From contig CANKQY010000007.1 in the NCBI GenBank assembly GCA_947485745.1, forward strand, positions 1 to 50,620: a stretch of DNA of 50,620 nucleotides, read 5' to 3'. Every line of letters starts with the position of its first letter. Position 1 is the first letter of the stretch. Positions 47,333-49,823 of this stretch are shown one piece after another. The notes under the pieces are model-generated. The model was not told the origin of the DNA. It saw only the letters and a program-made list of their open reading frames with translations, and did no database searches. A program made the position numbers and the translations under genes. Source of the DNA: Bacteroidota bacterium (GTDB lineage Bacteria; Bacteroidota; Bacteroidia; UKL13-3).

Positions 47333-47824
47333 TTAGCTCCTGAAATTATCAAATTGCAAAGGCACCTCAAAATCTTGTTGTCTCAATTCGGCCATTAATT
47401 CTTGTAAATCATCAATTTTCTTCCCTGAAACTCTTACCTGGTCCTCATGAATAGCAGGCTGTAACTTTGAATTGAACCCTTTGATATGAGAAACTATTTT
47501 CTTAGCTGTTTCTTTGTCTAAACCTTCCTTGATTTTTATGTCTTGTAATACCAATCTGCCGCTGGGTCTGGGTTCAGAGCTTAAATCCAGTATCCTTACA
47601 TCTAAATCTTGTTTGCTAAATTTCCCTAGAATGATATCAATGAGCGTTTGCATAGCCATTTCTTGCTTTGCCTCAAGCTTTATTAATTTCCCTTTTTTAT
47701 CAAATTCAATTGAGCACAATTCATCTTTTAAATCATATCGGTTTATGAGTTCTTTTTTTGCAGTATTTACAGCATTATCAACCCTTTGAAGGTCGGTTTT
47801 GCTAACTATATCTATACTTGCCAT
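47333..47824 (-). CDS. YajQ family nucleotide-binding protein
   Basis: A 163-residue cytoplasmic protein. In some bacteria YajQ binds cyclic di-GMP and acts with transcription factors. Family pieces visible are SKTDLQRVDNAVNTAKKEL at the start, YDLKDELCSIEFDKKGKLI, DVRILDLSSEPRPSGRL, KEGLDKETAKKIVSHIK, and the terminal VRVSGKKIDDLQELMAELR then DFEVPLQFDNFR. Whether this one binds any nucleotide is unknown. It is convergent with cdaA, the two stop codons being adjacent with no gap. Confidence 0.92.
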   Translation of the reverse strand: MASIDIVSKTDLQRVDNAVNTAKKELINRYDLKDELCSIEFDKKGKLIKLEAKQEMAMQTLIDIILGKFSKQDLDVRILDLSSEPRPSGRLVLQDIKIKEGLDKETAKKIVSHIKGFNSKLQPAIHEDQVRVSGKKIDDLQELMAELRQQDFEVPLQFDNFRS

Positions 47825-47921: not shown

Positions 47922-48725
47922 ATGATTAATAAAAATAGCTACAACCTACTTTTTGTTTCCCTACTTGGGCTAGTATTAATTTTGGGATCATGCAAAGAAA
48001 CTGAAACTACTGCTCCAGATAGCACTGTTAATGTTTGGGATACGGTAACAAATTTTCAAGGTATTGTTAATCCTTCCAATTCTGGTACGCTTACCTTCAA
48101 AATGAATTATGCATACAAGGGAGCTGCACTAGAATTAGGCTCAAAATATTATACCAATGCGGCGGCTGATACATTTACCATCAAAGAATTGAGACATTAT
48201 TTGAGTAATATTATCCTGCACAAACCCAATGGGGATCAAGTTAATTTAAAAAATTACAACTTATTAGATGCAAGTATTGCAGGCTCTCAAACATTCACCA
48301 TTCAAAATGTTCCTGCAGGTAATTATACGGGCATTTCCTTTCTGTTGGCTGTTGATAGTTTTGCCAATCACAACGGACTTCAAGAAGGGGCTTTGGATCC
48401 ATCTTGGGGTATGTTTTGGACTTGGAGTACTGGGTACATATTTTATCGAATTAACGGAGCCACCACAAAAGGTAAAAATTATTCCTTTGATTTAGGTGGT
48501 GATGGAAATCAGCCCAGTATTAACCTTGATTTGAAAATGTATAAAGTAAAATCTAATAAAGCAACTTTTAATATGCTAATGGAGGTTAATGAAATGTTTC
48601 AAAGTCCAGAAAATTATAGTTTTGAAGTGGATGGGTATACTATACACAGTGAAACCGAACCCTCTGCCAAAAAGTTTGCGAAAAACATGGCCGATATGGT
48701 TAGTATTAATACCATAACTCCCTAA
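47922..48725 (+). CDS. mbnP: MbnP family copper-site protein (lipoprotein)
   Basis: A 267-residue member of the MbnP family, whose methanotroph relative binds copper after its partner MbnH oxidises one Trp to kynurenine. The lipobox is LGSC (C24). The mature beta-sandwich has TIKELRHYLSNIILHKPNG, a family strand near 90-100, and VPAGNYTGISFLLAVDSFANHNG. Then comes the Trp-rich stretch WGMFWTWSTGYIF, with W162, W166 and W168, likely near the site. The His residues H92, H100 and H150 are candidate ligands. The ATG at 47922 starts a clean lipoprotein signal. It is followed nine bases later by mbnH. No methanobactin genes are in the window. Confidence 0.82.
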   Translation: MINKNSYNLLFVSLLGLVLILGSCKETETTAPDSTVNVWDTVTNFQGIVNPSNSGTLTFKMNYAYKGAALELGSKYYTNAAADTFTIKELRHYLSNIILHKPNGDQVNLKNYNLLDASIAGSQTFTIQNVPAGNYTGISFLLAVDSFANHNGLQEGALDPSWGMFWTWSTGYIFYRINGATTKGKNYSFDLGGDGNQPSINLDLKMYKVKSNKATFNMLMEVNEMFQSPENYSFEVDGYTIHSETEPSAKKFAKNMADMVSINTITP

Positions 48726-48734
48726 AAATTTAAT

Positions 48735-49823
48735 ATGAAGAAGATTGCTATTGTTATAAGTTTTGTATTTTCATTATTGGCTTCTTGTAAAAAAGATCCT
48801 GTAGTTGGAGATATTTATGCTTATGACCCAGCACCATATCAGCTCAATTTACCAACCAATCTAGGATGGTCAACTTTTCCTATTCCAGAAACGAATCCCC
48901 TAACTAATGCGGGAGTAGCATTAGGAAAAAAATTATTTTTTGATCCAATTTTATCTGCCAATAATACCCAGAGTTGTGCAACTTGTCACCAGCCAGCTTA
49001 TTCTTTTGCTGATCCCAATAAATACAGTATTGGTATAACCGGACAAGTTGGTAACAGAGGCGCTATGCCTCTTTTTAATCTCGCTTGGACTGATAAGTAC
49101 AACCTAACTAATCATAGATATTTTTGGGATGGCGGAGCCAATGATTTAGAAAGGCAAGCTCTTGGACCAATTTTGAACCCAATTGAAATGGCCAATAAAA
49201 GCCTTTTTGATGTTGTTGCAAGACTTCAGAATAATGCTGAATATCCTGGTTTGTTTCGCAAAGCTTTCGGTTCAGACAGTATTACCTCAGTTAAATTGGC
49301 TCGCGCGCTTGCCCAATTTGAAAGAACATTGATAAGTGCTAATTCAAATTTCGACAAAGCTGAACGTCGCCAACGACTAAGAACACCGAGTGAGATTAAT
49401 GGAATGGCGATTTTTGGGTCTGAAAAGGGCGATTGCTTTCATTGTCATGGAAATTTAAGTTCTCCTTTTTTTACAGATTATGGGTTTCATAATAATGGTT
49501 TAAGTGAAGTGCAGCAAGACAGTGGTTTGTATCTTATAACGGGAAAGCCAGAAGACATTGGTAGGATGAAAACCCCGTCATTGCGAAATTTGTCTTTTAC
49601 CGCTCCATACATGCATGATGGGCGCTTTAATACACTCATGGAGGTAGTTGAATTTTACAATTCTGGAACTAAAAATTCTCCTACGGTTGATCCAATGATT
49701 AGCAAAAGTTTTGATCATGGCGGTTTGAACCTAACCCCTCAAGAAAAATTGGATTTGGTAGCTTTTCTACTGTCACTGAATGATTCCGCTTTTGTTAATG
49801 ATACGAGATATAGAACGCCTTAA
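48735..49823 (+). CDS. mbnH: MbnH/MauG-like diheme cytochrome c peroxidase family protein
   Basis: A 362-residue diheme c-type cytochrome. It has a lipobox (LLASC, C18), heme motifs CATCH at 81-85 and CFHCH at 234-238, and the peroxidase-family TAPYMHDGRFNTL segment after the second heme. In MbnH such hemes form a high-valent state that oxidises a tryptophan of MbnP. Position directly after mbnP makes that role likely here. It could instead be a plain cytochrome c peroxidase; the pairing favours MbnH. It is anchored outside the cytoplasm like its partner. Confidence 0.83.
   Translation: MKKIAIVISFVFSLLASCKKDPVVGDIYAYDPAPYQLNLPTNLGWSTFPIPETNPLTNAGVALGKKLFFDPILSANNTQSCATCHQPAYSFADPNKYSIGITGQVGNRGAMPLFNLAWTDKYNLTNHRYFWDGGANDLERQALGPILNPIEMANKSLFDVVARLQNNAEYPGLFRKAFGSDSITSVKLARALAQFERTLISANSNFDKAERRQRLRTPSEINGMAIFGSEKGDCFHCHGNLSSPFFTDYGFHNNGLSEVQQDSGLYLITGKPEDIGRMKTPSLRNLSFTAPYMHDGRFNTLMEVVEFYNSGTKNSPTVDPMISKSFDHGGLNLTPQEKLDLVAFLLSLNDSAFVNDTRYRTP

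Follow-up and report, generated by a model that had tools for sequence, protein, structure and literature searches.

Results

The MbnP/MbnH pair of the window

We have analyzed a window of DNA, that is, a whole stretch of 50,620 nucleotides from a Bacteroidota genome, and found that it carries a gene for an MbnP directly followed by a gene for an MbnH-like di-haem enzyme (Table 1). This pair had been proposed at the same positions by a first-pass annotation of the sequence, and its identity was confirmed by PF20243, TIGR04039, the solved structure 6e1c and the fold of 7l6g. The two proteins have 267 and 362 amino acids, respectively, and their genes are separated by 9 bases. The window MbnP scored 142.3 bits against PF20243 of Pfam, for which the cut-off is 27, and remained under the NCBI cut-off of the equivalog TIGR04052 (MbnP family copper-binding protein), with 45.7 vs 140 bits. 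When its single sequence was used to search the PDB, only chance matches were obtained. The AlphaFold2 model, calculated from 16 aligned relatives, had a mean pLDDT of 88.8, and the sole strong structural match of this model was 7l6g (VIA Z 16.6, rmsd 3.0, 199 residues), the next entry having a Z of 4.7. In the viral contigs that were searched, no relative was found.

Both proteins appear to be lipoproteins, as had been proposed: C24 of MbnP and C18 of MbnH are presumably lipobox cysteines, an assignment read from the sequence by motif. The three tryptophans that had been named as candidates for modification, W162, W166 and W168, are all present; W166 is conserved in all 133 MbnPs of the window's family, W168 in 103 and W162 in 13.

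Table 1. Positions of the genes and residues discussed in the text. Asp-type and His-type denote MbnPs with Asp or His at position 190; family and phylum denote the two MbnP samples.
Feature	Position	Strand	Basis
DUF520 (yajQ) gene, divergent neighbour	47333..47824	-	PF04461, 178.9 bits; homologue in 30/35 Asp-type loci
mbnP, Asp-type, lipoprotein by motif (ATG at 47922, stop at 48725)	47922..48725	+	PF20243; model matching 7l6g
Codon of C24, lipobox-like cysteine of MbnP	47991..47993	+	Sequence; Cys in 34/35 Asp-type MbnPs
Codon of M164 (MxW motif)	48411..48413	+	Met in 34/35 Asp-type and 131/133 family MbnPs
Codon of W166, kynurenine candidate (first Trp of WxW)	48417..48419	+	133/133 family, 95/99 phylum MbnPs
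Codon of W168, second Trp of WxW	48423..48425	+	35/35 Asp-type; 103/133 family, 85/99 phylum
Codon of R176	48447..48449	+	Arg in 35/35 Asp-type; Lys in 141/193 and Arg in 17/193 His-type
Codon of N178 (Glu in most MbnPs)	48453..48455	+	Glu/Asp in 2/35 Asp-type vs 189/193 His-type
Codon of D190, near-invariant His elsewhere	48489..48491	+	232 MbnPs: His 193, Asp 35
Codon of H242 (often Met in His-type)	48645..48647	+	His in 34/35 Asp-type; of 193 His-type, Met 105, His 40, Gln 15
mbnH-like gene, di-haem enzyme, lipoprotein by motif	48735..49823	+	TIGR04039; 6e1c
Codon of C18, lipobox-like cysteine of MbnH	48786..48788	+	Sequence; Cys in 34/35 partners of Asp-type MbnPs
First haem motif, CATCH	48975..48989	+	Cys, Cys and His in 219/219 MbnHs
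Codon of W131, opposite W93 of MauG	49125..49127	+	Alignment to 3rn1; Trp in 35/35 Asp-type partners, 184/219 overall
Second haem motif, CFHCH	49434..49448	+	216/219 MbnHs, three gaps
Codon of Y308, opposite Y294 of MauG and Met of peroxidase 4aal	49656..49658	+	Alignments; Tyr in 207/219
Long secreted-looking GEVED protein, start only, cut by the contig end	49919..50620	+	PF20009, 72.9 bits

The MbnH-like partner enzyme

The top NCBIfam model for the partner was TIGR04039 (MbnH family di-heme enzyme), with 265.9 bits vs 174 bits for MauG, although this score lies under the NCBI cut-off of 362.85; against CCP_MauG of Pfam, the protein scored 187 bits. Its nearest solved relative was 6e1c (5.6e-47), from Methylosinus trichosporium OB3b. 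All haem residues that were compared are kept. In addition, W131 and Y308 lie opposite W93 and Y294 of MauG, numbers that we counted from the alignment to 3rn1. In terms of profile score, nearest solved relative and the alignment of Y308, the partner falls with MbnH rather than with ordinary peroxidases, and the grouping with the latter that the first-pass annotation had named as contrary evidence was not seen.

Neighbouring genes and a second pair in the same genome

The divergent gene upstream of mbnP, a neighbour retained within the family, encodes a DUF520 protein, presumably of the yajQ family, and both Asp and His forms of MbnP occur at the locus beside it. Downstream, the start of a long secreted-looking protein mostly follows mbnH in Asp-type loci. 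Six such downstream proteins were scanned; five had GEVED, PKD, CUB or Ig-like domains and one had no Pfam match. In many relatives, as in the window, the contig ends soon after mbnH, and these breaks are probably due to repeats in the long downstream genes. No copper gene was recognised beside the Asp-type pair in the loci that were viewed.

The genome of the window has a second MbnP/MbnH pair (G000 contig C23, L109:5428-11999), which the first-pass annotation had missed. The MbnP of this pair has K176, E178 and H190 and keeps the WxW motif, and the lipobox cysteine is absent. Downstream of the pair, a T9SS-tailed multicopper oxidase comes first, and then a redoxin-like protein flanked by two YHYH proteins. 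Like the pair of the window, it scored under the NCBI cut-offs, with 33.5 bits for TIGR04052 and 210.4 bits for TIGR04039. On the one hand, copper-like surroundings are present at this second pair; on the other hand, they are absent at the pair of the window. For copper handling of the ordinary kind, this His-type pair is a more plausible candidate than the pair of the window. Among His-type MbnPs with WxW, YHYH homologues were seen in the locus of 21/68 family and 8/85 phylum members.

Distribution of the pair

MbnPs over the Pfam cut-off were found in 77 of 296 Bacteroidota genomes drawn evenly from the phylum. A profile of the Asp-type proteins matched 217 of 295 genomes of the class (E<=1e-3). 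A match was found in all 64 genomes of the window's family, which makes up its whole order in the genome set. For comparison, we used 232 MbnPs, namely 99 from the phylum sample and 133 from the family, the latter without the weakest places and fragments of the family search. An MbnH lay directly downstream, within -300 to +600 bases, in 219/232 cases (125/133 in the family and 94/99 in the phylum). The 13 remaining MbnPs comprise one with an overlapping MbnH outside this range (L036), two whose locus runs off the contig (L209, L258), five that are extra MbnPs immediately ahead of another MbnP (L088, L093, L099, L177, L182) and five for which the rule gave no MbnH (L104, L179, L185, L195, L256).

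No methanobactin genes were found beside the pair, in agreement with the first-pass annotation. MbnB had no match in the genome of the window, which is 96.5% complete, and the control for this search matched in one genome, under the cut-off. MbnC had no match there either; its control likewise gave none, so that this search is uninformative. The first-pass annotation had presented the occurrence of the pair outside a methanobactin operon as a surprise. This point is nothing new, since it has been in print since 2013: according to PMC3621798, conservation of the two genes extends well past the organisms that make methanobactin. Likewise, PMC9426467 (2022) describes MbnPH-like genes elsewhere, in copper-related operons.

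An Asp-type variant of MbnP

Compared with its relatives, the window MbnP is altered at three otherwise conserved positions, as G143A, E178N and H190D. Position 190 is the one near-invariant His of the alignment, found in 97/133 family and 96/99 phylum MbnPs. The state of the window protein at positions 190, 178 and 176 (H190D, E178N, K176R) had escaped the first-pass annotation. The His of the WMVHVG motif in 7l6g (residue 182 of the chain) aligns with position 190, and a Glu of 7l6g aligns with position 178. In Manesis 2021, the Cu(I) site of the OB3b protein is reported to consist of His, Met, solvent and kynurenine, the last arising by the action of MbnH on the first WxW Trp. Taken with the alignment, this makes position 190 the likely copper His. 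Another His of the OB3b MbnP, in the motif VNHSN (residue 132), was aligned near H150, which the window protein keeps, as do 17/35 Asp-type proteins in all.

Asp190 was found in 35 MbnPs, one copy each in 35 of the 64 genomes of the window's family. Because 35 genomes carry the Asp form, a sequencing or assembly error was ruled out as its source. All 35 Asp-type proteins retain W166 and W168 and have an MbnH directly downstream; the haem and enzyme residues compared are likewise retained in 35/35 pairs. R176 accompanies D190 in 35/35, while Lys176 occurs with Glu178 in most His-type MbnPs; two Asp-type proteins retain Glu178. Outside the family, no Asp-type MbnP was found among the 99 phylum MbnPs, nor in the 22 other-family loci among the best 30 loci of the 217 genomes with a class-search match. 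A scan of named genomes gave 15 Asp-type MbnPs among the best 80 of 551, and all 15 coincide in contig position with loci of the family genomes, so that they are the same places. In the literature that was searched, we found no mention of an Asp form of MbnP; the figures or supplements of Manesis 2021 and Kenney 2019 may show one. It is this variant, rather than the pair, that looks new.

Loss of His190 was also seen in other settings. In the phylum sample, three extra MbnPs without the Trp and without an MbnH (L088, L093, L099) also have no His190, so that elsewhere the Trp and the His are lost together. Two extra MbnP-like genes beside a normal MbnP (L367, L370) are likewise without the WxW Trp and His190, and the extra Trp-less genes are perhaps non-substrate partners. 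In two further proteins (L291:3974-4762 and L329:3998-4765), WxW is present and position 190, as placed by adding their rows to the alignment, is neither His nor Asp, the motif being F/S-Y-A-I-I-G.

History and selection of the Asp form

A careful tree was calculated from 68 rows chosen from the 232, with columns 176, 178, 190 and 242 omitted. On this tree, Asp190 needs three changes, and on a quick tree of 163 rows it needs two. For the 68 rows, the AU test did not reject a single clade of all Asp forms (p 0.193). Asp190 may have been gained with a later reversal, or gained repeatedly. In a supported set of 23 rows (95/88), four members of the window's genus with Lys176, Glu178 and His190 are nested with 19 Asp forms, and the MbnHs of these four retain Leu265 of the Asp partners. 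In two supported independent pairs, residue 176 changed with residue 190 both times, residue 178 in 1.8 of 2 and H242 in 0.8 on average. With residue 190 changing only three times, there are too few events for a coupling test.

Two residues were considered as marks of the Asp form and rejected. L265 of MbnH was found in 35/35 Asp partners vs 12/184 others, but Leu is also present in the four nested Glu/His members, 6e1c and 3rn1, and it marks lineage, not Asp. H242, as an Asp-linked ligand (34/35), changed six times on the tree, mostly not following Asp.

The dN/dS values were 0.03 to 0.18 in six chosen MbnP pairs (five Asp-type and one His-type, dS being saturated in one of the six). In three chosen MbnH pairs, they were 0.03 to 0.11. 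The Asp-type MbnP is under purifying selection. In 10 of 11 genomes checked it is the only Pfam MbnP, and seven of these ten genomes have a completeness of 96% or more. When the seven were searched with a profile, one more match was obtained, weak and partial (G344, E 1.8e-4, 74/264 profile positions). On these sequence data, the Asp-type MbnP has the appearance of a functional gene. A His-type MbnP was also obtained from 24 of the 35 Asp-type genomes, including that of the window, and one genome (G355) has two more MbnPs. Between some relatives, neighbouring mbnP and mbnH had discordant dS values (MbnP 0.14 vs MbnH 0.51 for L129/L130; MbnP 0.54 vs MbnH 0.14 for L141/L143), which hints at recombination between both genes.

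Discussion

The pair of the window shares with MbnP and MbnH of Methylosinus trichosporium OB3b the MbnP fold (7l6g), the WxW and MxW motifs, the gene order and the enzyme family. The window MbnP differs from the OB3b protein by His to Asp at position 190 and Glu to Asn at position 178, with 19% identity in the structural alignment; unlike for the OB3b pair, no methanobactin genes were found beside it, and both proteins of the window score under the NCBI cut-offs. The His-type pairs of Bacteroidota, such as the second pair of this genome, are like the window in families, order and WxW, but have K176/E178/H190 in L109 vs R176/N178/D190 here. MopE/CorA with CorB shows a related arrangement, in which a kynurenine at a Cu(I) site is made beside a di-haem peroxidase-like gene (PMC3912023). 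MopE/CorA differs in having two His ligands and a Kyn-x-His arrangement, and PMC3621798 describes its sequence as not markedly similar to MbnP. With MauG and the bacterial di-haem cytochrome c peroxidases, the partner enzyme shares the CCP_MauG family and, opposite W93 and Y294 of MauG, the residues W131 and Y308. However, 6e1c and the MbnH model are its closer matches, ahead of MauG and the peroxidases, and it has Tyr where peroxidase 4aal has Met.

We consider, with moderate confidence, that the window encodes a functional MbnP/MbnH lipoprotein pair of an Asp-type subclass, in which W166 would still be oxidised and the ordinary Cu(I) site would be unable to form as such. Because every member of the Asp-type set has the Trp, the enzyme and their pairing, MbnH very probably still oxidises W166. 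Most likely, the usual Cu(I) site has been remodelled or lost, and the metal site of Asp-type MbnP probably does not function as it does in other MbnPs. MbnH, anchored in the envelope beside MbnP, would take electrons from W166 by way of its two haems, and W166 would be turned into kynurenine or another oxidised form of Trp. A Cu(I) site of the ordinary kind, which in the OB3b protein reportedly has the four groups named above, could not form as such. As to what takes its place under this reading, chances are about even that Asp190, possibly together with M164, H242 and the oxidised Trp, forms a harder site suited to a different metal or to copper in another state. It is less likely that Asp190 is bound to Arg176 and the oxidised Trp is used without tight copper, and less likely again that copper is held by other groups.

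A wider proposal is more tentative, and as a whole we think it rather doubtful: the lineage would have swapped the metal-site His for Asp and thereby changed the metal, the oxidised Trp made by MbnH would serve a site other than a Cu(I) site, and the same chemistry would be put to another use; in one sub-branch of the window's genus, the swap would have been reversed or would not yet have taken place.

The first-pass annotation had read the pair as a module for copper capture or copper sensing. The Trp and the MauG-like enzyme are kept, but for this copy the copper role is doubtful: Asp and Asn replace His190 and Glu178, and none of the adjacent genes was recognised as a copper gene. Similarly, where it had singled out the modified Trp and the metal ligands for comparison with a studied MbnP, the Trp is present but the presumed His ligand is absent. 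As judged from residues and neighbouring genes, copper capture has less support for the pair of the window than it has for the second one. The window protein may nevertheless be an ordinary copper protein that captures or senses copper as first proposed, holding Cu(I) through M164, H150 or H242 together with kynurenine, with His190 dispensable. The kept M164 and WxW would fit this, as would H242 in 34/35 and H150 in about half of the Asp-type proteins, and the copper site of the OB3b protein is said to include a Met. We think it unlikely, considering that His190 is the one near-invariant His among 232 MbnPs, that H150 is missing in 18/35 Asp-type proteins, and that no copper gene was recognised adjacent in the loci viewed vs a multicopper oxidase at the His-type pair of the same genome.

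It is also improbable, in our estimate, that the protein has a metal-free use. In such a use, Arg176 would hold Asp190, no metal site would be left, and a kynurenine or Trp cross-link made by MbnH would contribute to stability, to redox chemistry or to binding of the adjacent secreted protein. R176 and D190 always occurring together, with Lys176 beside Glu178 in most His-type proteins, and the long secreted-looking neighbour downstream speak for such a use, but M164 and H242 are nearly invariant, which a lost site would not demand. The three alterations G143A, E178N and H190D in the window protein could further be taken for those of a decaying copy, whose function is fading and whose His190 is simply gone. 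This is very improbable in view of the low dN/dS, the same form in 35 genomes with an MbnH always present, and its place as the sole Pfam MbnP in seven near-complete genomes.

The Asp-type set, in which the Trp and the enzyme are kept and the His is gone, separates what MbnH needs for Trp oxidation from the purpose of the oxidised Trp, two questions that are coupled in the methanotroph protein. Genomes having both Asp-type and His-type pairs, and close relatives in which the residue is switched, are natural comparisons.

Other observations on the MbnP and MbnH families

In public plasmid records, three proteins (L157:4827-6098, L158:4774-5943 and L159:4871-6022) are labelled as methanobactin export MATE transporter MbnM. 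Their MbnH scores (406, 441 and 559 bits, respectively) exceed the NCBI cut-off, and therefore these labels are wrong. In eight phylum loci (L064, L077, L081, L087, L092, L097, L098 and L107), one MbnP is followed by two MbnH-like genes. The first but not the second Trp of WxW is kept in 29 family and 11 phylum His-type MbnPs (e.g. L230 and L245), and many His-type MbnPs without the second Trp have a W-P-x-M-G-G-G-Y motif.
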